Assembly (NCBI RefSeq): GCF_033100135.1
Contig: NZ_CP136920.1
Coordinates: 5,079,001-5,143,000 of the forward strand
Reading direction: 5' to 3'
From: Rubellicoccus peritrichatus
GTDB lineage: Bacteria > Verrucomicrobiota > Verrucomicrobiia > Opitutales > Cerasicoccaceae
DNA: 64,000 nt
Shown in pieces: positions 32,559 to 45,088 of this stretch; position 1 is the first letter of the stretch; the number at the start of each line of letters is the position of its first letter. The notes below the pieces were generated by a model that saw only the letters and a program-made list of their open reading frames with translations, ran no database searches and had not been told where the DNA came from. Position numbers and translations under genes: made by a program.

Positions 32559-33560
32559 ATGAAAGACACACTTGCCGTCCGATACCATGAACATGGAAAA
32601 GCTTCTGAGGTTCTGAAGCTGGAAACTATCCAAATGGAGGAGCCTCGCCCTAGCGAAGTCGTAATCGCGATGAGAGCCGCTGTCATTCACCCCTCGGACT
32701 TTGGGATGATTGCCGGAAGTTATGGGCGCCTGAAAGAATTACCTGCCGTCGCTGGACGGGAAGGTGTCGGCGAAATTGTCCAAGTTGGCAGTGCGGTTTC
32801 AGAAGATCTCTTGAGGAAAAAAGTGCGCATGCCCGAGCAAGCAGGCGTCTGGAAACAGGTAGCTCTCGCTCTAACCGACGAACTGACTTTCATTCCGAGC
32901 GAAATCGACGCACAGGTTGCCGCTCAGGCTTTTGTTAATCCTCCAACGGCCTACCGTTTGCTGAATGACTTTGTCGATTTGAGTTTTGGCAACTGGATCA
33001 TTCAGAATGCTGGGAATTCGGCAGTCGGATTTTGTGTTGCCGGCTACGCGAAGCACCTTGGCATCAACTGCATATCCGTCGTGCGGGACGTTGAACGATG
33101 GGAACAACCATTGAAAGACGCAGGATCGACTGCGGTTATTGCCGAAGGGACTGACTATTTCAAATCCATCAAGGACATCACTGACGGTGTCCCGATCAAG
33201 CTCGCTCTCAACTCCATTGGGGGCGACAGTGTGATGTCGCTGATCAAAGCAGTCGATGAAGGCGGAACTGTCGTAACATTCGGAGGCATGGTTGGCGATA
33301 AAGTCCGCTTCCCCACTCGTGAACTGATCTTCAAGGATATTGCATTACGCGGGTTTTGGATGGATCGCTGGTACCGCAATCATGCAGACCATGAAGCAAA
33401 CTCAATGATGACTGAGATCTATAAGCTCTTGAAGAAAGACGTGATGCAACTACCAGTCGATCAAGTCTTCGCCTTCGAAAATGCCTTGGAGGCGATCCAG
33501 CGTGCATCTGAAGGCAACCGACAGGGCAAGGTACTGATCACCTCCGACTGGCAACCTTAA
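32559..33560 (+). CDS. MECR/ETR1-like 2-enoyl thioester reductase (MDR superfamily)
   Basis: The 333-residue protein belongs to the zinc-free branch of medium-chain dehydrogenases/reductases. Diagnostic stretches are AVIHPSDFGMIAGSYG, PAVAGREGVGEI, the NADPH-binding region NWIIQNAGNSAVGFCVAGYA and INCISVVRD. These match mitochondrial-type trans-2-enoyl-CoA/ACP reductases, which complete fatty-acid elongation. A more general quinone-reductase role cannot be excluded. It is a single gene, convergent with the beta-lactamase-like gene 10 bases away. Confidence 0.82.
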   Translation: MKDTLAVRYHEHGKASEVLKLETIQMEEPRPSEVVIAMRAAVIHPSDFGMIAGSYGRLKELPAVAGREGVGEIVQVGSAVSEDLLRKKVRMPEQAGVWKQVALALTDELTFIPSEIDAQVAAQAFVNPPTAYRLLNDFVDLSFGNWIIQNAGNSAVGFCVAGYAKHLGINCISVVRDVERWEQPLKDAGSTAVIAEGTDYFKSIKDITDGVPIKLALNSIGGDSVMSLIKAVDEGGTVVTFGGMVGDKVRFPTRELIFKDIALRGFWMDRWYRNHADHEANSMMTEIYKLLKKDVMQLPVDQVFAFENALEAIQRASEGNRQGKVLITSDWQP

Positions 33561-33570
33561 GTCTAATAAC

Positions 33571-35550
33571 TTACTCGATCCTGGCAACGTAGTCGATTGC
33601 TTCGAGGAAGTAGCGCTGCCATTCGTCTTCGTAACCGTATGGCGTAGCCAAGTATTCAATCTCAGCCGCTTTGCTTAAACCATAGTTATTTTCCTTGGCG
33701 TAAGTGTCCTGAAAAGATTCCCAGGAACCAGTGTTGGCAAAGTATATCCACCAGGAGACAAAATCATTGTCTGGCCCGGATCGATCCACACTGATGCCAC
33801 CGACATAAGTCCAACTCTCATCAATGGTGCTATACATCCAAGGATAAAAGTCTTCCGTAGCCCAAAGCCACTCACTCCAGTTATCGCGTTCAGCCCAGAA
33901 CCAGGCTGATGGGCCACTTCCTTCCAATAAATCAGGAACAACATAAGCGTAAGCCAGCTCAAAGATGCGAACCCAACCGGTGTAATCCAGCCATGATTCC
34001 TTTCTGACAAAAGAACCGTCTCGCTCGACATCATAGTATTCGATCAAAATATCACTCGCCACCTCATCACCAACCTCCGCAAACTGAAAAGTAAACTTGC
34101 TGACGGGGCCGGCACTTTCACCAATCGGCTGAAAAAGGAATTCATCGCCATCCCAATGCGTCAGCTCAAAAGTCTGTGGCAAGGGTCCGATGTCAAAGAC
34201 AAGATTTCCATTTGCCTCATAGACAGTAACGTCTCCCCAGTATTCGCTGGTGAAAGTACCGGTATAAGCACGGTTAGCCTTTGCGGAGATTGGGTTTTCG
34301 GGCGGAGTTGAATAATCACCACCATAGCCATAGGATTCAGCCGATATTTGCTCAAACTGCTCGTTTGCGAAAGCAACCCAATCACGTGTTAACTCTCCAC
34401 GAAATACGTAGTCAGCAAAAGAGAACTGCAACCCTTCAGGAATGCCGTTTACGCCACCGTTCACAAAGACAGCAATCCCAAGATCAATATCCGGATAAAG
34501 CCGCACACCCGTTCTCACTCCCAGGTCGAAGGCCCCGGAATGGCTAATCATTAAACCACCATCCGTATTATTCTGAACATTCCAACCAAGTGCATAGTAA
34601 GATGCCTGTCGAGTGTCGGGATTGAATCCTGTTTGAGCATGAGGACGCCATGTCTCAATCAAGGCATCAAGATCCAGAAGACGCTCACCATTAAACTCGC
34701 CTTCGGCCAGCTGAAGCCTCATCCACTTTGTGTAGTCTGAAATGGTGGTACTGAGACTGCCAGCAGGTGCCTGCGCATCAGGATCACGGGTATAAAGGGC
34801 TTCCCAAACTCCTGGTGAAACCTGAACATGGATCAAAGATTTATTCTCCGCATCCAGATAATCCTGATAACGGTAGCTGGTTGATCCCATCCCAAGGGGA
34901 TCAAAAATATATTGCTCGGCAGTGGCCTCCCATGTCATTCCTGCCGCACGGGCAATGGCAACACCAGCCTGGGTGAATCCAAAATTGGTGTATCGATAGC
35001 CGTCTCGAAATGCGTAGGCCGGAGCCAGGAAACGCTGTTGAACGAGCACATCATGCCGATTGAATCCCATGTCTTCCAGCTTATCACCCGATTGTGCGGG
35101 CAAACCACTCCGATGTGAGAAGAAATCCGCAATTGTCACATCTGATGAAAGGAAGTCGTTCGAAAGACGGAAGCCAGGGTCGTATTTGACTACAGGATCA
35201 TCCCAATCGGCCATTCCTTTCCCAACAATAGCGGCACCTACCGTAGTGGCCATTGGTTTGGACAAAGAGGCGATCTGAAAAACAGTATTCAAATCAATCG
35301 CATCGGCGGTCTCCGCTTCCTTGACTCCATAGCCTTTGATCAGAACAACCTCATCCTTGTAAACAACCGCCATCGCAATGCCTGGAATACCGGTTTGTGT
35401 TAAAGTGTTTTCAGCCAGTGCATCAATAAGCGGCAATGCGTTATTTACCTTATCATCCAGTGATTCATCTTGAGCGAGGCCGATCAAAGGTGCAAAGGCA
35501 GTTGCGAGGAGAGTATTTACATTACGGAGAGTCAGAAGCTGTCTAAGCAT
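33571..35550 (-). CDS. Secreted class C beta-lactamase-like serine hydrolase with C-terminal aromatic module
   Basis: With the ATG at 35550 the protein has 659 residues and a signal peptide ending near LIGLA (about residue 25). The serine-hydrolase domain (about 30-370) shows SxxK (Ser95, Lys98 in ASLSKP), YxN (Tyr187, Asn189 in YTNFGF) and the third motif HSG in ISHSGAFD. A DUF3471-like strand domain follows (about 400-510). The last ~140 residues are rich in Trp and Tyr (for example AWFWAERDNWSEWLWATEDF, then YPWMYS), as in C-terminal modules I recall on many secreted Opitutae proteins. The catalytic domain could be an esterase, D-amino peptidase or beta-lactamase. Confidence 0.85.
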   Translation of the reverse strand: MLRQLLTLRNVNTLLATAFAPLIGLAQDESLDDKVNNALPLIDALAENTLTQTGIPGIAMAVVYKDEVVLIKGYGVKEAETADAIDLNTVFQIASLSKPMATTVGAAIVGKGMADWDDPVVKYDPGFRLSNDFLSSDVTIADFFSHRSGLPAQSGDKLEDMGFNRHDVLVQQRFLAPAYAFRDGYRYTNFGFTQAGVAIARAAGMTWEATAEQYIFDPLGMGSTSYRYQDYLDAENKSLIHVQVSPGVWEALYTRDPDAQAPAGSLSTTISDYTKWMRLQLAEGEFNGERLLDLDALIETWRPHAQTGFNPDTRQASYYALGWNVQNNTDGGLMISHSGAFDLGVRTGVRLYPDIDLGIAVFVNGGVNGIPEGLQFSFADYVFRGELTRDWVAFANEQFEQISAESYGYGGDYSTPPENPISAKANRAYTGTFTSEYWGDVTVYEANGNLVFDIGPLPQTFELTHWDGDEFLFQPIGESAGPVSKFTFQFAEVGDEVASDILIEYYDVERDGSFVRKESWLDYTGWVRIFELAYAYVVPDLLEGSGPSAWFWAERDNWSEWLWATEDFYPWMYSTIDESWTYVGGISVDRSGPDNDFVSWWIYFANTGSWESFQDTYAKENNYGLSKAAEIEYLATPYGYEDEWQRYFLEAIDYVARIE

Positions 35551-35682
35551 AGAACAAATAGAACTTTGGGAATGAGAATATATTCCCAAACAGATACATG
35601 CGAAGAGAACGCAAGGCAAGATTTCCTGAGCCTACGAAGCAGTGGAACGCAATTACTCAAATAGGACAGCTAACAATAAAAG

Positions 35683-35853
35683 CTATCTGGTGGGGTCGAT
35701 CGTACTGACAACGACACTTTCCGGGTTTTGCTTTGCTTCCGTGGCAGAACTACCGGCTTCTGTGCTAGTGCTAAAAAAACAGCCACTGATGACAAAGATC
35801 GTTGCAACTGAAATAGCTAAAATAGCGTTCTGTCCCTGATGAGATTTAAACAT
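35683..35853 (-). CDS. Small lipoprotein
   Basis: A 56-residue frame starting with ATG at 35853. It has a basic N-terminus (MFKSHQGQN), a hydrophobic stretch (AILAISVATIFVISGC) and a lipobox, ISGC, with the lipidation cysteine at residue 25, then a short Ser/Thr/Glu-rich tail ending DPTR. It begins 14 bases after the HAD-like gene on the same strand, so the two are probably co-transcribed. The only longer frame here runs antisense to it and lacks features. Confidence 0.6.
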   Translation of the reverse strand: MFKSHQGQNAILAISVATIFVISGCFFSTSTEAGSSATEAKQNPESVVVSTIDPTR

Positions 35854-35867
35854 ACACAATCGAAAAA

Positions 35868-36323
35868 TTAGTTCTCAGCAAGAGATGGGCGGTTTTCGTG
35901 AGGAAATGCTTCTTCCAGTAATGGCACCTTTGGTCGGGCCATAACGGATGGACTACGGATTGGTTTGCCAGAATTCGTTACCACCTGAATGCAACGGTCA
36001 TCCCAGAGCTCAACCATAAAAAAGTCTTTGCGATTCGTTACCTCGAGACCGGCCAATTTATGCTTTTTGAGCCATTTCTCTACTGGCGGAATGGCATCAG
36101 GAATCGATGCACGTGCAGTAAATATTTTAACTTTGTAGCCTTCTTTCTGCCAATTGCGAACCCGCTCCATCATAGACTTGATTGGCTTTCCAATATGTCC
36201 GAATCCTCGCCAGGTGGAAAAGCGAGCTAAAGTGCCATCTAAATCAACACCGATCCATGGAACGTCGTCGGAAAAATCGCCGTCCGTAGAAGGTTGAATA
36301 TTACTAAGTGTCGGGGAAGACAT
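35868..36323 (-). CDS. HAD-like phosphatase-type protein
   Basis: The 151-residue protein shows HAD motif I in IGVDLDGTLARF (catalytic aspartates), a motif II-like threonine in KIFTARAS, and a motif IV-like acidic pair in LWDDRCIQV. The cap is minimal, as in small HAD phosphatases or phage-type nucleotidases. The first 20 residues look disordered. The substrate is unknown. It is followed by a small lipoprotein gene on the same strand. Confidence 0.75.
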   Translation of the reverse strand: MSSPTLSNIQPSTDGDFSDDVPWIGVDLDGTLARFSTWRGFGHIGKPIKSMMERVRNWQKEGYKVKIFTARASIPDAIPPVEKWLKKHKLAGLEVTNRKDFFMVELWDDRCIQVVTNSGKPIRSPSVMARPKVPLLEEAFPHENRPSLAEN

Positions 36324-36483
36324 ACGAAGTGGCCAGTGAGTGCGGCCGATTTGCTAGATTAAGGAAGGATTAAGATACTAGAGACTTTCTACAGTATGAC
36401 AAGCCATTATCTAGGGGATATGCCGGGTTTTTTCGCGTTTTGCATTTTTTTTACAATTCAGCAACCTACTAATAATCATTACC

Positions 36484-37425
36484 TTACGCACTCCTTAAAA
36501 GTTGTATCCCCTTGATTATCAAGCCCTGTCGAGGACTCACAATCCAAAGTAAACCGAAGATCAAAGTGGCGACGACAACCATGGCGCCGGCAATGCTGGT
36601 ATCCAGCCAAAGAGCAAGGTGATAGCCTGCGACCGAGTAGACAAAAGCAAGCGGAAGGGTCAATACCAGGATGAAAGGCAGGCGATCCGTCACCATACTG
36701 GCAGTCACAGCCGGGAAGATTAGCATCGCAATGACAAGAATCGCTCCAACTGCTTCAAATGCACTGACAACAGAGAGCGAAAGCACGGCCATCAGCCCAT
36801 AGTGATAAAAATTGACGCGAATTCCAAGTGACAGAGCCAGGGCCGGGTCAAACGAAGTCACGAGCAGGCCTTTGTAGAAAACGATGGTCAGGACAGCCGC
36901 AATGAGAAAAACGCTTCCCATTAACACGACAGGTCGTGGCCCAAGTTCCATCCCCCCCAACGAAACGGTGTCCATGAGCGGGATGAACCCGATTTCTCCA
37001 TAAAGAACACAATCGGGATCGAGATCTACGCGGTCGGCAAACAAGGCGAGCATGATCACCCCGACGGCAAAGAGAAACGAGAAGACAATACCAAGGGCAG
37101 CATCGGGCTTAACCCGTGAACTGCGATGAATCGCCTCAATCAAAAATACTGTAAACGCCCCTGCAATAATCGCACCGATCATCATGGGAAATGAATCACG
37201 CGAACTTGTAATCAGAAATGCGAGAACGATTCCGGGCAGGAGACTGTGGCTAATCGCATCACCAACGAGTGCCATCCGGCGGTAAACAAGAAAAGTCCCA
37301 ACAATCCCACAGGTTGCATTTGCAAGGAACCCCATAAGGATAATCCAGAAGACACCGCCCGCATCAAAGGTCCATGGCTCAACCACGACACTTTGAAAAT
37401 CAAAAGCTGGAATGAAGTCGTTCAT
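36484..37425 (-). CDS. Metal ABC transporter permease (ABC-3 family), YtgD-like
   Basis: The 313-residue permease has about eight membrane helices and the ABC-3 family pattern (VYRRMALVGDAISHSLLPGI near residue 47, TSFDPALALSLGI in the cytoplasmic loop, a C-terminal GLLWIVSPRQGL). It overlaps the end of the permease-repressor fusion gene by 4 bases (ATGA), so the two are translated together and should form a heterodimeric channel. It is the last gene of a four-gene operon with the same order as chlamydial ytgABCRD. Confidence 0.92.
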   Translation of the reverse strand: MNDFIPAFDFQSVVVEPWTFDAGGVFWIILMGFLANATCGIVGTFLVYRRMALVGDAISHSLLPGIVLAFLITSSRDSFPMMIGAIIAGAFTVFLIEAIHRSSRVKPDAALGIVFSFLFAVGVIMLALFADRVDLDPDCVLYGEIGFIPLMDTVSLGGMELGPRPVVLMGSVFLIAAVLTIVFYKGLLVTSFDPALALSLGIRVNFYHYGLMAVLSLSVVSAFEAVGAILVIAMLIFPAVTASMVTDRLPFILVLTLPLAFVYSVAGYHLALWLDTSIAGAMVVVATLIFGLLWIVSPRQGLIIKGIQLLRSA

Positions 37426-38918
37426 GTCTGCGGTTGTCGATAGCCGGAAGGTGAAACATCGGATGTGCCCTGTCCGAGGTTGCGCGCCATATCGTCAATG
37501 CTGGGAATCAATTTCCCATGCGGATCTTTTCTTGGAAAATCGAGCTTCCGCTCAATTGCCCTGACCGTTGACTCACCAAGCAGGTGCTCGACCCGCTCAG
37601 CATCATCATGAACATGATCAGCCGGATAGTCTGCCGCATTGGTCAGGTAGAGTTCCCAAAGTCTATGATTACGAACAATCTCGCAAGCCCGCTGCCACCC
37701 AGTTGGGGTTAAAGCAATTTCCTTGCGAAAACCGGCGAGCTTCTCATCCCGTATCTCCGATATCGAAGCCATGTGTTTTTTCGTAAGCTGCTCAACGCGT
37801 TGGCTCGCTTCAGGGGCTGACTCGTTTAACTGGTTGGCCAGCTGGGCAAGCTCAACAACCTGTGATTCAAAACCGCCCCTTTCCAGAACATGGTAAAGCG
37901 CCTTGAGTGTGTTTTCATCCTGAATACGAATACGACGCGAGCGCTCGCGAAAACGACGCGGAACCAGCCCATGACGCGGCCCGAGCATGAAGGCTAGGGC
38001 AAAGACTAAACTCGCCCCCAGCACCATAAATGGCCCGGTTGGCAAACTATTGCCCAGGAAGGAAAGGAACGCGCCCAGCACCGCGCTGAAGACACCGAAG
38101 ATCATCGCCAACACCAGCATCCACCCCATGCGATCCGTCAGCAGGTAAGCTGCAGTCGCGGGCGTAATCAGCATGGCAGAAACCAGAACAATCCCCGTGG
38201 CTTGCAGAGAAACCACAACGGCAAAAGCCAATAGCATCATCAGCAGATAATGAAAGAAACCGGCGGCGATACCTGAGCTTTTTGCAAAACCTGCATCGAA
38301 ACTCGTTGTCAGTAGTTCTTTGTAAAAGAAAGCCACAATGATAACCGAGATCAGGGTGACACCGGCCATCAGCCAGATATCTGACGCAGAGAGTGCAGCA
38401 GCCTGACCGAAGAGGAACTTATCGATGCCGGACTTATCCCCTGTGCCCATCCTCTGTATCATAACAAAGAGACAGATGCCGATCGCGTAAAAACCTGCCA
38501 GAACCATTCCCAGAGCACTGTCTTCCTTAATCCGGGTGGTTTGCTTGATCAGATTCACTCCGCCAACACCAATCAACCCGGCAACAGTTGCCCCAATGAA
38601 GATTGCAACCGGATCTTTGGTTGCCGACCAGAGGAAACCAAGAGCCACGCCTGGCATGACAGCATGCGAAAGTGTATCACCAACCAGTGAGAGCTTGCGA
38701 ACAACAAGAAAAGCTCCGAGTAAACCGCAACAAATCCCCATAAGGATAGACCCCATCACAGCGTATTGAACCGCAACATCCTGAAAGGTCCAAAAGCGCA
38801 AAGCCTGCTCAAAGGCATTCGTATCACGAATGTCTCCGATCTTTGCTCCATGCGCACTCGGTTGAAAAACCAAGGCAAGCGGCAGCAAAAGCCGTAGACT
38901 CTTCCCGATTCTATTCAC
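37422..38918 (-). CDS. ABC-3 metal permease fused to a DtxR-type metalloregulator (YtgCR-like)
   Basis: From a GTG at 38918 the protein has 498 residues; a TTG at 38945 is less likely. It opens with a signal-peptide-like helix, then an ABC-3 permease (to about residue 315; VVRKLSLVGDTLSHAVMPGV, TSFDAGFAKSSGI). After a basic linker (RRFRERSRRIRIQDEN) comes a winged-helix segment (about 335-415) and a DtxR/MntR dimerisation domain (NHRLWELYL, then HDDAERVEHLL, FPRKDPHGKLIP). The likely metal ligands are kept: His of NHR and Glu, Glu, His of DAERVEH. In Chlamydia trachomatis the same fusion, YtgCR, is cleaved to release the repressor YtgR. Whether that happens here is inference. The start overlaps the ATPase end by 8 bases. 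Confidence 0.9.
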   Translation of the reverse strand: MNRIGKSLRLLLPLALVFQPSAHGAKIGDIRDTNAFEQALRFWTFQDVAVQYAVMGSILMGICCGLLGAFLVVRKLSLVGDTLSHAVMPGVALGFLWSATKDPVAIFIGATVAGLIGVGGVNLIKQTTRIKEDSALGMVLAGFYAIGICLFVMIQRMGTGDKSGIDKFLFGQAAALSASDIWLMAGVTLISVIIVAFFYKELLTTSFDAGFAKSSGIAAGFFHYLLMMLLAFAVVVSLQATGIVLVSAMLITPATAAYLLTDRMGWMLVLAMIFGVFSAVLGAFLSFLGNSLPTGPFMVLGASLVFALAFMLGPRHGLVPRRFRERSRRIRIQDENTLKALYHVLERGGFESQVVELAQLANQLNESAPEASQRVEQLTKKHMASISEIRDEKLAGFRKEIALTPTGWQRACEIVRNHRLWELYLTNAADYPADHVHDDAERVEHLLGESTVRAIERKLDFPRKDPHGKLIPSIDDMARNLGQGTSDVSPSGYRQPQT

Positions 38919-39681
38919 CCGCTTCGATTCGCTCCTTCTCGACAACCTCGGTCAGGATGTTGAGTCTGCCGCCGTAGGTCTTTTGAAGATTATCGAGAGT
39001 AAAAACTTCCTCGGTTGGGCCGTAGGCCATCATGCGCATGTTCAAGAGCAAGAGACTGTCGAAATATTTTTGCGCGGTTGGGAGATCATGATGAACGACA
39101 AAGATGGTTTTGCCGCGCTGCTTGAGTTCGGTCAGCAACTCAATAATCGCTGCCTCTGTTGCCGCATCTACTCCAGCAAAAGGCTCGTCCATAAAGTAGA
39201 GGTCACTTTCCTGGGCCAGAGCACGTGCCAGAAAAACACGTTGCTGCTGGCCTCCTGAAAGATTCGAAATCTGTCGTTTGGCAAAGGGCAGCATCTTGAC
39301 CCGGTCAAGACACTCCATCGCCACTTCACGGTCTGCTTTGCTGGGACGACGAAAGGCACCAAGCCTGCCGTAGCGCCCCATCAAAACCACATCGAAGACG
39401 TTAACCGGGAAGTCCCAATCGACGGACTCCCGCTGCGGAACATACCCTACGCGATTAACGGCCTTCTTAAACGGCTTGCCGAAAATTTTAACCCAGCCAC
39501 CGCTCTTGGGCACAATGCCCATAATCGCTTTGATTAAGGTCGACTTCCCTGCCCCGTTCGGACCAATCACGCCGATCAACTTCCCCTCCTCCGCCACGAG
39601 ATCGATACCGTAAAGAACCGGTCGCTTGTGATAAGCGACGGTCAGATCATGGATCTCAAGCGGTGGTGATGTATTCGGCAT
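38911..39681 (-). CDS. Metal ABC transporter ATP-binding protein, YtgB-like
   Basis: The 256-residue ATPase has Walker A GPNGAGKST (about residues 40-48), the ABC signature LSGGQQQRV, Walker B DLYFMDEPFAG and the H-loop histidine in VVHHDL. It resembles ZnuC/MntB-type ATPases. It starts 9 bases after the substrate-binding protein ends and overlaps the permease-repressor gene. Confidence 0.95.
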   Translation of the reverse strand: MPNTSPPLEIHDLTVAYHKRPVLYGIDLVAEEGKLIGVIGPNGAGKSTLIKAIMGIVPKSGGWVKIFGKPFKKAVNRVGYVPQRESVDWDFPVNVFDVVLMGRYGRLGAFRRPSKADREVAMECLDRVKMLPFAKRQISNLSGGQQQRVFLARALAQESDLYFMDEPFAGVDAATEAAIIELLTELKQRGKTIFVVHHDLPTAQKYFDSLLLLNMRMMAYGPTEEVFTLDNLQKTYGGRLNILTEVVEKERIEAGE

Positions 39682-39690
39682 TCGAGTGGG

Positions 39691-40611
39691 TTACTTCAAA
39701 GCATCAACAATAGTGTTCACATTATGCTTCACCATCCCGGGCCAGGTTCCAACATCATAAGTTTCGCCATCGGACCCTTGTTCCATTTCGCCAGGTGTTC
39801 CCATGGCATCCGAGAAAAGTTCTCCTCCAATGACAGCGCCGGAGTCTTCACTGATACGCTTGATGGTGGCTGGAGACACACTGGTCTCAACAAAGATTGC
39901 CGGTACTTTTTTTTCCTTAATAAAATCGACTGTCTCGGAGATGTCAGCAAGCCCTGCCTCAGTCGCTGTGGAAATCCCCTGCACACCAACAACCTCAAAG
40001 CCAAAGGAACGGCCAAAATAATTGAAAGCATCGTGGCTTGTAATGAGGACACGTTTCGCCTCGGGGATTTCCGCGACACGCATTTGAGCCCATTCACCAA
40101 TCTTCTGATAAGATGCCGCCAGTTTCTTACCACGCTCTTCATAAATCTTGGCATGTTCTGGATCAGCGTCTGAAAGCCCCGTCACAACAACCGGGATACA
40201 CTCCGCCCAAAGCTCAACGTCAAACCAGACATGCGGATCCCAATGCCCTTCAAACTCAGGAGGCTCCAACAGGGAGGTTTCCTCGATTTCTTCCGTCACA
40301 GCGTAAACCTTGGCTCCGCGACGTGCCATCTTGGCAAAAACATCCGCCATTCTTCCTTCCAGCATCAGTCCATTGTAAAAAATGACATCTGCCTTGCGCA
40401 GAAGCGAAATATCGCGGGCCGATGGTTTATAAAGATGCGGGTCCACTCCAGGGCCCATTAAGGCAACGATTTCGATATCGTCACCGCCAACATCCTTGAC
40501 CATATCGGTCACCATGGTCGTAGTGGTAACTACAATCGGCTTTTCCGCCAGCAAAGACGCACAAATCCCCAAGACCGAAGTCCCAACAAGAAGAATACTT
40601 TTTAGTTTCAT
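39691..40611 (-). CDS. Mn/Fe-type metal-binding periplasmic protein (cluster A-I), YtgA/TroA-like
   Basis: The 306-residue protein has a signal peptide (MKLKSILLVGTSVLGICASL). Four likely metal ligands are visible: His in GVDPHLYKPS, His in HWDPHVWFDV, Glu in IFVETSVSPATI and Asp in ELFSDAMG. A His-His-Glu-Asp set is typical of Mn/Fe binders such as PsaA, whereas zinc-binding ZnuA has a third His and a His-rich loop, absent here. It is the first gene of the operon, reading away from the divergent DtxR-family gene. Confidence 0.93.
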   Translation of the reverse strand: MKLKSILLVGTSVLGICASLLAEKPIVVTTTTMVTDMVKDVGGDDIEIVALMGPGVDPHLYKPSARDISLLRKADVIFYNGLMLEGRMADVFAKMARRGAKVYAVTEEIEETSLLEPPEFEGHWDPHVWFDVELWAECIPVVVTGLSDADPEHAKIYEERGKKLAASYQKIGEWAQMRVAEIPEAKRVLITSHDAFNYFGRSFGFEVVGVQGISTATEAGLADISETVDFIKEKKVPAIFVETSVSPATIKRISEDSGAVIGGELFSDAMGTPGEMEQGSDGETYDVGTWPGMVKHNVNTIVDALK

Positions 40612-40648
40612 AAAAATACATATATTTCATGCATACAAAAACAAGACT

Positions 40649-40660
40649 TTGACAAGTCAA
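40649..40660. promoter_or_regulatory. Candidate metalloregulator operator TTGACAAGTCAA
   Basis: A perfect 12-bp palindrome in the 78-base gap between the divergent transporter operon and the MntR-like gene. TTGACA inside it also works as a -35 box for the regulator (16 bases to TAGACA at 40671), and its complement gives TTGACT for the transporter side. A dimeric DtxR-type repressor bound here would block both promoters. The assignment is inferred from symmetry and place. Confidence 0.45.
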
Positions 40661-40689
40661 AATTAAGTTTTAGACATACCTCATTAAGC

Positions 40690-41355
40690 ATGGCAAGCAG
40701 CACAGTAGAAAATTACGCCAAGGAAATCTTCCTCAGCTCACAGCGAACCGGGGACAAAGTGGTGCCCATGGGCACGGTCTCTGAGGCACTTGGCGTCTCT
40801 CCTGGCACCGCAACCGCGATGGCCAAGAAACTGGAAAGCGACGGCCTTGCCGTTTACAAACCAAGAGCCGGAGTCAGTCTGACCGATAAAGGACGCGACC
40901 TCGCTGTGCAGATGGTTCGACGTCACCGGCTTGTTGAATATTTTCTTTTTGAGATTCTGAAGATGGATTGGTCAGAAATCCACGAAGAAGCCGAATCCCT
41001 GGAACACGCAATTTCCGACCGACTCCTGGCCCGACTCGACACCTTCCTCGGTCACCCAAGCTCCGATCCACATGGCGATCCAATCCCAAGCGCCGATGGC
41101 TCCTTTTCCACGCCCAAAGTTATTCCACTCGGAGAATGCACCGACGGACAAAGTGTTCTCATCAGCCGTATCACCGATCAGGATAGTGCGTTTCTCCATT
41201 ACGTTTCCCAAAACGAACTCCGCCCTGGCTCGGAGATCAAGGTGATCCGTCACGACAAGGCCGGACAAAGCGTTGAAGTCCAACTCGGCTCCGGCGCAAC
41301 CAAAACCCTCGGCGGACCCGCCGCTGACAAGATTCTCGTTTGCGTGCAGCCCTAA
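40690..41355 (+). CDS. DtxR/MntR-family metal-dependent transcriptional regulator
   Basis: The 221-residue protein has all three DtxR domains: a winged helix (about 1-65; VSEALGVSPGTATAMAKKLE), a dimerisation/metal domain (about 66-140; RHRLVEYFLFEIL, HEEAESLEHAI, HPSSDPHGDPIP) and a FeoA/SH3-like C-terminal domain (about 150-221). It is transcribed away from the metal transporter operon, and its second domain is clearly related to the one fused to the operon's permease. It should repress transport when Mn or Fe is plentiful. Confidence 0.93.
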   Translation: MASSTVENYAKEIFLSSQRTGDKVVPMGTVSEALGVSPGTATAMAKKLESDGLAVYKPRAGVSLTDKGRDLAVQMVRRHRLVEYFLFEILKMDWSEIHEEAESLEHAISDRLLARLDTFLGHPSSDPHGDPIPSADGSFSTPKVIPLGECTDGQSVLISRITDQDSAFLHYVSQNELRPGSEIKVIRHDKAGQSVEVQLGSGATKTLGGPAADKILVCVQP

Positions 41356-41519
41356 GGATTTGATCAAAGCTGAAAGAGAATCACTGTCACCGGGATCAAA
41401 CCAACAGGCACCAGATTCGATGCGGTGCACTGAATACAAAAGATATCCTGAATAAACTGGTATGAGTAAGCTGGTAGATCACACTTCTCCGCTTGTAAGT
41501 TTAGTCCCAAAACTGAATC

Positions 41520-42593
41520 ATGTATTCAATGAGCAAATCCCCATCCAAGAGCAAAAAAGACCTTCAACCAGCGACGGAACTGTGGTCGATGTATCATCCC
41601 GACCAGGCACAGTATTCTTTCAATGCGACAGACGCAGCCAGTGCTAGAAAATGGCAGACCAAAACCCGGCAGGCTCTTGCGAAGCAGATTGCTCTTGATA
41701 CGATTCCTTTGGTAGCGCCGCAGCCTCAAGTCATTGAGGAAGTGGATAAGAAAGATTACATCCGGCAAAAGATCGTTATCCGAACGGGGCCGCATAGTCT
41801 GATGCCTGTCTACATACTTCTCCCTAAGGATCGTCCCGGCCCCTTGCCCGTTGTTCTGGCATTTCATGGGCACGGATATGGCGTCAAAGATATCGTTGGA
41901 TTGTGGGAAGACGGAAAAGAAAGAGACACGCCCGATGGTTATCATAAGGATTTTGCAGTCGACTTATGCCGGGCTGGATTCGCGGTTGCTGCTCCGGAAA
42001 TATCATGCTTCGGGGAGCGGCAAACGGACTTTTCCTATTTAAACGAAGTGCCAGGCCAACCTGCCCCAACCACCTGCACGCACTCGTCTATGCTCGCGTT
42101 TCACCTCGGTCTCTCCGTCGTCGGAATCCGAGTACATGATGGCCTACGACTGGTTGATTATCTGGAAACAAGAAAGGACATGGATATCAATCGACTCGGC
42201 GCGATGGGTATCTCGGGAGGTGGAATGCATACCTTCTTCTCAACTTGCCTTGATAACCGTATCAAAGCATGTGTTGTCAGTGGATATTACTCCACATTTC
42301 AGGATAGTATTTTGGGAATGTCGCACTGCGCCTGCAACTTCGTTCCTGGACTAGCGAAGTTTGGAGAAATGTATGATCTTGTTGGCTTGATTGCGCCTCG
42401 CCCAATGTTGATAGAAGCTGGCACCTACGATCCGATTTTCCCGATTCGCTCTGTTCGCTCCAGCGTGAAAAAAGCACGCTCAGTTTATAAAGTATTCAAT
42501 GCCTCAAACCAAATCGTAACAGACTACTTCGAAGGTCGACATCAAATCAGCGGGCGAAAGTCATATGATTTCCTCAAACAGGAACTTGTGTGA
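41520..42593 (+). CDS. Alpha/beta hydrolase (Abhydrolase_7/acetyl xylan esterase-like)
   Basis: The 357-residue protein has an alpha/beta-hydrolase core: PLPVVLAFHGHGYGVKD (oxyanion region), the nucleophile elbow GISGGG (MGISGGGMHTFF), a late acidic residue in AGTYDPIFPIRS, and a C-terminal His in GRHQISG. Residues 1-90 form an N-terminal segment typical of the Abhydrolase_7 group found in polysaccharide loci. There is no signal peptide, so it is probably cytoplasmic. A second ATG at 41529 is possible. It may remove ester groups from imported oligosaccharides. Confidence 0.82.
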   Translation: MYSMSKSPSKSKKDLQPATELWSMYHPDQAQYSFNATDAASARKWQTKTRQALAKQIALDTIPLVAPQPQVIEEVDKKDYIRQKIVIRTGPHSLMPVYILLPKDRPGPLPVVLAFHGHGYGVKDIVGLWEDGKERDTPDGYHKDFAVDLCRAGFAVAAPEISCFGERQTDFSYLNEVPGQPAPTTCTHSSMLAFHLGLSVVGIRVHDGLRLVDYLETRKDMDINRLGAMGISGGGMHTFFSTCLDNRIKACVVSGYYSTFQDSILGMSHCACNFVPGLAKFGEMYDLVGLIAPRPMLIEAGTYDPIFPIRSVRSSVKKARSVYKVFNASNQIVTDYFEGRHQISGRKSYDFLKQELV

Positions 42594-42619
42594 CTAGAGT
42601 AAAGTCCGTGCTGCATTTT

Positions 42620-42712
42620 TAGCCACAAGAAGGCACAAAAATTCACAAAAACAATTCAATAAAACCGGAGGCAATTCTGCCTTTGTGTCTTTTCGTGCCT
42701 TTTTGTGGCTAT
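42620..42712. repeat. Long imperfect palindrome (TAGCCACAA / TTGTGGCTA arms)
   Basis: The left arm TAGCCACAAGAAGGCACAAA (42620) and the right arm TTCGTGCCTTTTTGTGGCTA (42712) pair over about 20 bases with few mismatches, with a second internal pair (GAGGCAATTCTGCCTTTG). It lies between the converging alpha/beta hydrolase and GH172 genes. It is a third member of the family at 17966 and 29342. Confidence 0.65.
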
Positions 42713-42740
42713 AGATATCTTATGAAAAAGTATAGCAAAG

Positions 42741-43889
42741 CTATATAATCTCGAGGAAGTCGCGATCCGGTAATTCAGGGAAAGCTGGAGTTGGTAGTGC
42801 CTGATACCAGTAAGCAACAGATGAAAGATCATCCTGTAAGGGCATGTAACGTCCTCCACTCCGCCAACCAAGGGCCTGGATAGTCACTGCAATGTCCTCC
42901 TGAAAATGAATCGGATCGGGGATGTGCCAGCGATAAAGGCTGAAGCGGGTTTGAGATTCATAAACGCCATCCGGGCGCACGATGTGAGGCAAGCCCGCAT
43001 AAGGCGTTGTGTATTCCTGGTATTGCTTGGTCGCCTTGTTCTCAAAGTTATATGAGCCACAGAAGTAGTCTTCCGTTCCCGTTCCACAGATTGTCGGAAA
43101 ACGGGAACCTCCATGTTCAGCAACAGCTTCATCGGTCGCCTCACCTTCAGGGATATCACCATCGAGATAGAATTTGATTTCTCCCTCGCCCCACCAGCCA
43201 TTGTTATTAACACCCCACGCCATGTAGGTTCCGGCATAATGGCCACGGCCTCGAACGCCGTCGAGAATCGTATGCACTTTGCCATATTCCAAAGGATTTG
43301 TCCGACGAAATTGAGCATGAAAATAACCGGTATCTTCTGGAACATCCTGCAGGACATAGTTGACCTGATAGAAAAGCAGCAACGACTCTTTGGGGTCGCG
43401 ATTTTCAATCGTCATACGAAAGCCCTTACGAAAAGGCATTGGCCAGTAGCAATTGAAGGCGTTGCCGGGATTCACACAGACAGCGAGTGAACTGATTTGA
43501 GCAAAGACATCGAACTTGGTATAAGCTGAGGCAAAGAAATCTCCTACCGGACATTCCACTGAAGGCAGATCCTGGCCATCATAATAGATACGGAGAATGA
43601 GATTTCGATAGGGAACACCAGCTGGCGTCATCCAAATCGATTGAACACAACCGGATTCATTGATCTCTGCCACAGTGTAAGTTTCCCCCGGCGCAATGTA
43701 CTGGTTTGGCTTTACCTTCCAGCCGCGACCCAGCTCACGTGAACATCCAGTGCGTTCACCAGTATCCGGGCAAACAGGAATATCAGCACGGCCGCCGCCA
43801 CTCTTTTCTCCGGTCTGGTTTTCAGAAGAAATCGATCGACTCTTCGCGTTAGAAAGCACACCGAGACTGCTGTAGGGTCCGTTAATCAT
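42741..43889 (-). CDS. GH172-family (DUF2961) glycoside hydrolase
   Basis: The 382-residue protein matches DUF2961, now glycoside hydrolase family 172 (alpha-D-fructofuranosidase and D-arabinofuranosidase activities are known). Recognisable blocks are INESGCVQSIWMT, RIYYDGQDLPSVECPVGDFF, WWGEGEIKFYLDGD (Glu235, Glu237) and GTGTEDYFCGSYN (Glu273); the family catalytic glutamates should lie in the last two blocks. No signal peptide is present. Residues 34-48 look like a short insertion relative to the family pattern as I recall it. It sits downstream of a LacI gene and near a beta-mannosidase. Confidence 0.85.
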   Translation of the reverse strand: MINGPYSSLGVLSNAKSRSISSENQTGEKSGGGRADIPVCPDTGERTGCSRELGRGWKVKPNQYIAPGETYTVAEINESGCVQSIWMTPAGVPYRNLILRIYYDGQDLPSVECPVGDFFASAYTKFDVFAQISSLAVCVNPGNAFNCYWPMPFRKGFRMTIENRDPKESLLLFYQVNYVLQDVPEDTGYFHAQFRRTNPLEYGKVHTILDGVRGRGHYAGTYMAWGVNNNGWWGEGEIKFYLDGDIPEGEATDEAVAEHGGSRFPTICGTGTEDYFCGSYNFENKATKQYQEYTTPYAGLPHIVRPDGVYESQTRFSLYRWHIPDPIHFQEDIAVTIQALGWRSGGRYMPLQDDLSSVAYWYQALPTPAFPELPDRDFLEII

Positions 43890-43951
43890 AATGGTAAAAT
43901 CGTTTGAGAATCTTCGTATTAGCTAAAAAGCTTCAACTTGTATATAAACGC

Positions 43952-43963
43952 TTAACTAGTTAA
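43952..43963. promoter_or_regulatory. Palindrome TTAACTAGTTAA upstream of the GH172 gene
   Basis: A perfect 12-bp palindrome in the gap between the LacI gene (upstream on the minus strand) and the GH172 start, flanked by AAACGC and AAAGCG. LacI-family operators are short palindromes of this kind. An ATGCTAAA element lies about 20 bases away (43983). Either could be the regulator's site. Confidence 0.4.
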
Positions 43964-44068
43964 ACAAAAGCGTCCATCAAAAATGCTAAACCAATTGAAT
44001 AAACTGATATGAGTTAGATCAATTTAGCAATACAACGCTTAAAATGACTGATGCCTTTACTGAAAGGC

Positions 44069-45088
44069 TTAATCCTTAGATGGTGGACCAAGAGACTGTC
44101 GCATAACAAGCTCGGAGCGGAGAGACTGACGCTGAATTGGAGAATCAAAGTCGCGCATCCGGTTCTTCAACATGGAAAAGATCTTTGATGCCATCTCTCT
44201 GCGATCATTGCGAATCGTTGAAAGGCCGATCAACTCGGCATCACGAACATCATCCCCTCCCAGGAGCGAAAGATCTTTGGGAATTTGAAGGCCGAGATAA
44301 CGGGCTTCGCAATAAATGGATGCGGCCGTTTCATCATTGAAAGCCACCACAGCCGTTGGGCGTCGACCAAGAGTCTGCCACTGCTCAAACGAGGCTCGAC
44401 CGGCTTCAGCACCGGATGCATGCATGACAGAAAGCTCTTCATCAAAGGCCAGGCCAACGTCTTCCAACGCCTTAACCAAGGTCCCATGCTTTCCATACGC
44501 AACAGCGGCTGGAGGCACAAAGCCAACATAAGCAACCTTCTTGTGACCGACATCCTTGAGATAGCTGAGTGCCTGCCTGAGGCTTTGATTGTAATCGACA
44601 GTCAAACAATCGAATTCGTTACCGAAGCTCAAGTAGATGAATAGAAGAGGATATCCCCAGGACTTCAGTTTGCGATATAAATCCAGATTCACTCCCTTCG
44701 GGATCGGATTTATAACCAATGCATCTGTCTCCCCGGCAGACCAATGCAGGATCGTATCAGCCTCACGCTCAGCACAATAGTGAGTCAGCGCCAAACTGGT
44801 TGCAGTCCCACCGCTGGACATAACGGTGTCCAAGTGCTCATAAATCTCACTGTAATTGGCGTTCTGAAGGTTAGGCAGAATGATACCTACACGGCCACTG
44901 TATCCACGCTTAAAGTTCCTAGCCGAAGGGTTCGGATGATAGCCGATCTCACGTGCCGCTTTTAAGATCTTTTTGCATGTTGCATCGCTAATTCCACCAT
45001 TTCCATTGAATGCACGAGATATAGCCCCTTGAGAAAATCCAGTTTTCTTGACCAAGTCGGCCAGTGTTGGTCTTTTTTCGCGAATCAT
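44069..45088 (-). CDS. LacI-family transcriptional regulator
   Basis: The 339-residue protein has an N-terminal LacI helix-turn-helix (TLADLVKKTGFSQGAISRAF), the hinge (YHPNPSARNFKRGYSGRVGI) and a periplasmic-binding-protein-like effector domain (about 60-330). It lies between the GH172 gene, in the same direction, and the divergent GH2 mannosidase, so it probably controls both. The effector is probably a mannose- or arabinose-containing sugar; this is inference. Confidence 0.93.
   Translation of the reverse strand: MIREKRPTLADLVKKTGFSQGAISRAFNGNGGISDATCKKILKAAREIGYHPNPSARNFKRGYSGRVGIILPNLQNANYSEIYEHLDTVMSSGGTATSLALTHYCAEREADTILHWSAGETDALVINPIPKGVNLDLYRKLKSWGYPLLFIYLSFGNEFDCLTVDYNQSLRQALSYLKDVGHKKVAYVGFVPPAAVAYGKHGTLVKALEDVGLAFDEELSVMHASGAEAGRASFEQWQTLGRRPTAVVAFNDETAASIYCEARYLGLQIPKDLSLLGGDDVRDAELIGLSTIRNDRREMASKIFSMLKNRMRDFDSPIQRQSLRSELVMRQSLGPPSKD

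Follow-up and report, generated by a model that had tools for sequence, protein, structure and literature searches.

What is a complete DtxR-type module doing at the end of a metal permease: is it a repressor that is cut from the membrane, as in Chlamydia, or does it act on the transporter itself? The question is posed by a 64,000-nucleotide stretch of the Rubellicoccus peritrichatus genome (Verrucomicrobiota; contig NZ_CP136920.1, positions 5,079,001 to 5,143,000; hereafter the window), in which a four-gene operon for a divalent-metal ATP-binding cassette (ABC) importer runs on the minus strand from 40611 to 36484, encoding head to tail a binding protein, an ATPase, permease C and permease D. 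Permease C carries the module. The chlamydial counterpart, the YtgCR fusion of ytgABCD, is reported to be cleaved and to act as a repressor (PMC5599777, PMC7755916, PMC6504234), and the original prediction for this locus offered the same cleavage as an inference. Computation supports the operon, the fold and ligand residues of the module, the grouping of fused domains, a separate MntR and an operator. The reading we prefer, and to which we would give an even chance, is that MntR is the repressor and the fused domain the metal sensor of the transporter. The features concerned are these:

40690..41355, plus strand: standalone MntR-type repressor, divergent from the operon (helix-turn-helix PF01325, E 2.5e-10; metal domain PF02742, E 2.4e-31; FeoA domain PF04023, E 3.2e-13)
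40648..40661, no strand assigned: predicted palindromic operator TTTGACTTGTCAAA, in the gap that separates mntR from the binding-protein gene (conserved motif across relatives)
39691..40611, minus strand: substrate-binding protein of the ZnuA/MntC/YtgA type, 306 amino acids (PF01297, ZnuA, E 2.4e-76)
38911..39681, minus strand: ATP-binding subunit of the MntA/YtgB type, 256 amino acids (PF00005, ABC_tran, E 1.1e-26)
37422..38918, minus strand: permease C fused to a DtxR module (AlphaFold2 model with a mean predicted local distance difference test score, pLDDT, of 89.9 and a predicted template modeling score, pTM, of 0.83)
37983..38774, minus strand: ABC-3 permease domain of permease C (PF00950, E 2.7e-65; best structural match of model residues 43-339 is the Mn importer permease PsaC, Z 36.1, root-mean-square deviation (rmsd) 2.5 over 282 residues)
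37878..37967, minus strand: single predicted helix that leaves the membrane and merges with the first helix of the winged-helix domain (model residues 326-355)
37485..37934, minus strand: fused two-domain DtxR module, winged helix plus metal-binding/dimerization domain (model residues 337-488; DtxR Z 18.6, rmsd 1.7, 137 residues aligned; DNA-bound Mn repressor DR2539, Z 18.4)
37503..37709, minus strand: metal-binding/dimerization domain with a complete ligand set (PF02742, Fe_dep_repr_C, E 1.5e-22; ligand table)
36484..37425, minus strand: permease D, in the YtgD/TroD position and without a fused domain in the window (PF00950, E 1.7e-48)

The interval of the original prediction extends to the stop codon of the standalone MntR (41355), a gene left undescribed there. 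It starts 78 bases from the operon, on the opposite strand, and its product matches 5zr4, a solved metal-dependent regulator (E 2.7e-48). We scanned for the palindrome in the 300 bases upstream of the called start of the binding-protein gene and its first 60 bases, at 89 of 92 loci (91 fetched regions plus the window; the other three lack a binding-protein match). TTTGA-N4-TCAAA was found there at 28 of the 69 non-chlamydial loci, where 200 dinucleotide shuffles gave a mean of 0.1 and a maximum of 2, and at none of the 20 chlamydial loci; in 28 of 29 occurrences four bases separate TTTGA from TCAAA. The window's genome has two copies of the strict form, TTTGACNNGTCAAA. The second copy (G000 3681594-3681607) is probably a chance occurrence, lying among open reading frames that by eye are of the PEP-CTERM type, with no metal gene seen.

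Standalone regulators were classed by their recognition helices, with the MntR types set after the sequences had been viewed. Among the 53 loci with at least one such regulator in hand, taken from the fetched region or from a PF02742 genome search that covered genomes and regulators in part, the palindrome is found at 23 of the 29 whose regulators include a PGT-type MntR and at none of the other 24 (Fisher p 8e-10, which is too small because the loci are related by descent). It also occurs at five of another 12 loci, for which no regulator was in hand, and a second palindrome, TAGC-N4-GCTA, leans toward the short SHVTV type (5/10 as against 3/43). Within the window's own fusion group the motif is present in two members that have a PGT-type MntR and absent in four that have another type. 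An independent check used 30 genomes chosen as having no full-length fusion match among the matches listed: five hold a strong full-length match to the window MntR (at least 279 bits, the next being 118), and the motif lies about 50 bases upstream of MntR in all five, compared with 0 of the 25 other regulator loci fetched. Near three of these five MntR genes is an open reading frame read by eye as an NRAMP/MntH transporter. Finally, 13 loci combine the operator with an adjacent MntR, and across them the identity in the recognition helix is 0.69 in MntR as against 0.26 in the fused domain. Judged by these sequence comparisons, the operator follows the type of standalone MntR and not the fusion, and a released, YtgR-like repressor finds no support at this locus.

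The presence of a separate regulator is not peculiar to the window. All 43 Verrucomicrobiota and Planctomycetota genomes with a full fusion (46 genomes searched) hold at least one further PF02742 match in an open frame shorter than 400 amino acids. Among the Chlamydiota, 90 genomes were searched and 80 gave a PF02742 match, which lies in a frame of at least 413 amino acids save for one of 313; nine of the 80 have a second match, in a frame of 141-182 amino acids, and in the remaining 71 the fusion is the only DtxR-family match (counts read from rows, with open frames under 400 amino acids taken as standalone and the chlamydial 313-residue frame as a fusion). The window's genome differs from that predominant chlamydial state, and from characterized YtgCR, in having the divergent MntR with its matching operator as well as a third DtxR-family protein, of 160 amino acids and the short SHVSV recognition-helix type (G000:C1:990968-991141, L035). 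The wide distribution of fusions has been read, in a 2017 review, as a sign that a YtgCR-type mechanism may exist throughout bacteria (PMC5599777). The present comparison suggests that fusions in Verrucomicrobiota and Planctomycetota normally coexist with a standalone DtxR-family regulator, and in the window with a dedicated MntR and its operator, so a fusion cannot be assumed to be the repressor.

The same co-occurrence might be taken to mean that the fused domain pairs with free MntR through the DtxR dimerization face, holding it at the membrane or releasing it according to transport. An MntR-like gene (more than 100 bits to the window MntR) lies within the fetched region at 21 of the 92 loci, the metal/dimerization domain is the best-conserved part of the fused module, and only one of the window's permeases is fused, which leaves a dimer face free. 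In some fusion genomes, however, the regulators in hand are only distant short types, so that a matched dimer face is not general, and we regard such a partnership as quite unlikely.

From the structural model, the tail of permease C is a genuine, complete two-domain DtxR module, much as the original prediction had described it, with a winged helix and metal ligands; the ligand positions H79/E83/H98/E102/E105/H106 (DtxR numbering; C102 of DtxR is E here) are all kept. H79, E83 and H106 are invariant in all 102 tabulated fused domains and E105 in 101 of them. Such conservation across phyla calls for selection, and it makes it very unlikely that the fused domain is a vestige without present function, as might otherwise be suggested by its variable winged helix and by the loss of module parts in some D permeases and in Poribacteria-type permeases. 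Loss of metal ligands in the fused domain, at the positions of D8 and E11 of MntR, was considered and dropped, as the standalone MntR proteins here themselves carry N/D and K/R at these positions.

The DNA-binding part presents a different picture. The expectation that the C-terminal segment would match DtxR-family profiles was borne out by PF02742 and not by PF01325, which on the window fusion gave E 0.062 and 14 bits against a cut-off of 26 (the standalone MntR scores 40.9 bits). At E 0.01, all 19 standalone proteins and none of the 91 fused ones match PF01325, whereas PF02742 recognizes all 110; these counts comprise 19 of 20 chlamydial fusions (one contains an unknown residue), 51 C fusions and 21 of 27 D tails of at least 110 residues, from the two main groups, and 19 of the 21 MntR proteins of the regions (two overlong reads were left out). 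In a table restricted to classes of five or more rows, which takes in 102 fused proteins and 18 of the 21 standalone ones, the ratio of winged-helix to metal-domain identity is 0.44-0.59 in six fused classes versus 0.74-0.75 in two standalone classes, and winged-helix length is 41-94 residues versus 56-59. The DNA-binding part of the fused domain is thus diverged and poorly conserved.

These features bear directly on the possibility that cleavage frees the domain from the permease and that the soluble product represses the operon in response to metal, either together with MntR or in its place. Its appeal lies in the chlamydial precedent, in a gene order like that of chlamydial loci, in the grouping of the fused domains and in the full DtxR fold with its complete ligand set. 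Yet a dedicated MntR is present and the operator tracks it, conservation of the recognition helix is lacking even within the window's group of six fusions, and the mean charge of the winged helix in that group is -2.2, the most acidic class, as opposed to +4.0 in Chlamydiota, the most basic. Nor does the chlamydial cut map simply onto the junction. The fragments are reported at about 28-30 kDa (PMC5599777 and PMC7755916) and in five chlamydial fusions would start near residues 187-213, inside the permease, whereas the domain is about 17 kDa; as the fragments exceed the domain, a cut in the inter-domain linker is not what these sizes show, with the caveat of gel mobility. Structure prediction of the linker, proposed earlier as a way to judge cleavage, yielded one continuous helix (326-355) joining the membrane part and the winged helix, and because the chlamydial model has the same helix, it cannot decide the matter. 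On balance we consider a released repressor unlikely at this locus, if not negligibly so.

In the scheme we prefer, the standalone MntR would bind TTTGAC-TT-GTCAAA, in the promoter region common to mntR and the operon, and so repress the operon. The DtxR module of permease C would stay on the transporter and would most likely not be the operon's repressor; it may bind cytosolic metal through its intact DtxR site, and metal-dependent dimerization, or docking against the ATPases, might then throttle further import as feedback inhibition. MntR binding to the operator, non-release of the domain and the feedback step are all points that we infer. The sensor role suggests itself because the metal domain is conserved, because two modules could pair within one transporter where D is also fused or where a single permease forms a homodimer, because the join is rigid in the model, and because the ABC importers MetNI and ModABC are known to be feedback-controlled through fused domains (PMC10710835). 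The window's system would resemble these trans-inhibited importers in having a cytosolic ligand-sensing dimerization domain added to an importer, with the inhibition itself proposed here by analogy. It differs from ModABC, whose domain is on the ATPase subunit (same source), in that the domain is on the permease and has a DtxR fold. A literature search, from whose coverage subscription papers mostly fell outside, found no paper on a separate MntR accompanying such fusions or on a feedback role for them. In MetNI, the sensing domain sits on the ATPase subunit.

Several observations weigh against this scheme. The window has only one module per C+D transporter, so that pairing of its module would need a second transporter or another partner. 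Six of the 29 loci with a PGT-type MntR lack the operator. The predicted winged-helix fold of the window fusion is intact, and the idea of a broken winged helix, prompted by the absent Pfam match, was dropped for that reason. None of the 19 chlamydial fusions matches PF01325 either, and the C-terminal 139 residues of chlamydial YtgR are described as an iron-dependent repressor (PMC6504234); as YtgR represses while unmatched, a missing match proves little about DNA binding. A motif unlike that of DtxR, R-x-W-[ST], is found in the recognition-helix region of 23 of 24 distant Verrucomicrobiota C fusions (L009-L032), whose winged helix, to judge from this, is conserved for something. Lastly, the C and D permeases of Poribacteria, Sumerlaeota and BRC1 (L321, L322, L323) have a winged-helix-like tail of about 90-105 residues with no metal domain, which a pure metal-sensor role does not explain.

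How the module came to be on the permease can be approached through two trees, both unrooted. In that of 175 permease domains, a main C group of 84 rows (support 99) and a main D group of 80 rows (97) are seen, and the window's permease forms with five relatives a separate branch within the C group (99). The chlamydial C permeases cluster with rows from planctomycetes, Poribacteria, Sumerlaeota and BRC1 (86), and the window permease is not the sister of YtgC. In the tree of DtxR domains, whose standalone rows come only from genomes of this sample, the 102 fused domains (C and D, all phyla) and 35 standalone ones lie on opposite sides of one branch with support 99, or 98 without the linker and 84 (not starred) for the metal domain alone. 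As far as the alignments go, the window module is related to chlamydial YtgR, in keeping with the original prediction and not with an independent, unlinked fusion, and a single origin of the fused domain is favored. The permeases of L276, L316, L317 and L331 are an awkward case. They branch apart from the 84-row C group, next to L277, a single permease without a fusion (support 90), yet their DtxR domains lie on the fused side; possible explanations are an older ancestor that was fused and was followed by losses, a second fusion event, or transfer of the domain. A single permease was detected at each of these four fused loci, which may keep an older homodimeric form, and they cut both ways, against one simple fusion history and in favor of paired modules.

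It had been suggested that the fusion predates the split of the Planctomycetota-Verrucomicrobiota-Chlamydiota (PVC) lineages. One origin would fit, but Verrucomicrobiota fusions split into separate groups and the permease tree departs from that of the organisms, transfer is possible, and related permeases occur outside PVC. With unrooted trees, standalone regulators sampled only from these genomes and a branching order unlike that of the organisms, the data do not show that the fusion came down vertically from a PVC ancestor.

Nor is the fusion new outside Chlamydia, as had been thought: Thompson et al. 2012 reported orthologous fusions in 11 phyla, according to the 2017 review (PMC5599777), so that a wide distribution was already known. 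In our searches, 288 genomes of the window's phylum contained four close relatives, with 55-58% identity over the match (among the matches listed), and at least 32 further genomes with matches extending beyond residue 467 of 507. Chlamydiota (116 genomes searched) and Planctomycetota (149 genomes) also yielded fusions, and in the latter 27 of the 30 best matches reach past position 445 of 464. Wherever all four genes were found at the 92 loci, the order is binding protein, ATPase, C, D, with the ATPase of L321 about 3 kb from the permeases. A long module-type tail is present on permease D at 27 loci (11 in Verrucomicrobiota and 16 in Planctomycetota, out of 30 and 20 tree-set D permeases, respectively). 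At L324 (Abditibacterium) the metal operon looks split into several frames near its permease genes, unless frameshifts in the assembly account for this. In Planctomycetales bacterium 10988 (L316, 5716-7281) the tail of the fused permease is 236 residues long, and one member of the C-fusion set, possibly this protein, also matches the FeoA domain.

Within the operon itself, the order and tight spacing first noted were confirmed, with a gap of 9 bases between the binding-protein and ATPase genes followed by overlaps of 8 and 4 bases. Permease C likely starts at GTG 38918, which gives 498 amino acids, because this fits the 8-base overlap with the ATPase stop (the mechanical list of open reading frames has TTG 38945 and 507 amino acids); permease D starts at 37425, overlapping permease C by four bases. 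A signal-peptide-like stretch, unusual for an ABC permease, precedes the first membrane helix of permease C (38830-38918, minus strand), and the four closest fusions have N-terminal extensions that resemble it. The top NCBIfam models for the ATPase are Mn/Fe ABC ATPases, with scores under the equivalog cut-offs, and the substrate is most likely Mn(II), possibly Fe(II).

Set beside known systems, the locus shares with chlamydial ytgABCD/YtgCR its gene order, fused permease C, full metal site and place on the fused side of the DtxR tree; it differs in that the WWW (Trp-Trp-Trp) sequence of five of 20 chlamydial fusions is absent from the proteins read in window 33001-45000. It has the binding protein, ATPase, ABC-3 permease and adjacent, separate DtxR-family repressor (MntR/TroR) of the PsaBCA, MntABC and TroABCD Mn(II) importers, to which permease C adds the extra DtxR module. 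With standalone DtxR/MntR proteins (DR2539, 5zr4, DtxR, IdeR) the fused copy has fold and metal ligands in common, and unlike them it is membrane-attached, has no SH3/FeoA domain, and has a diverged recognition helix.

The fusion in the window belongs to a known family; its setting, with a separate MntR and operator, differs from that of the characterized chlamydial system. TTTGA-N4-TCAAA emerges as a candidate operator for one set of MntR proteins, from lineages that have received little study, and the fused module offers an alternative to the repressor reading, in which an ABC importer would receive metal feedback through its own DtxR domain. It is possible, though we would stop short of calling it probable, that the fused domain began as a sensor in an importer with two fused permeases, perhaps a homodimer (to which the single-permease fused loci point) and then a C/D pair, whose two modules could dimerize under the one transporter while a separate MntR regulated the genes. 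On this view the window has retained the module on permease C, and Chlamydia would have turned the sensor into the repressor YtgR after most of its lineages lost the standalone regulator, the pathogen system being the derived exception. If this is true, chlamydial YtgR would be a transporter sensor turned repressor, and would point to a possible route by which a reduced genome acquires a repressor from part of a transporter.

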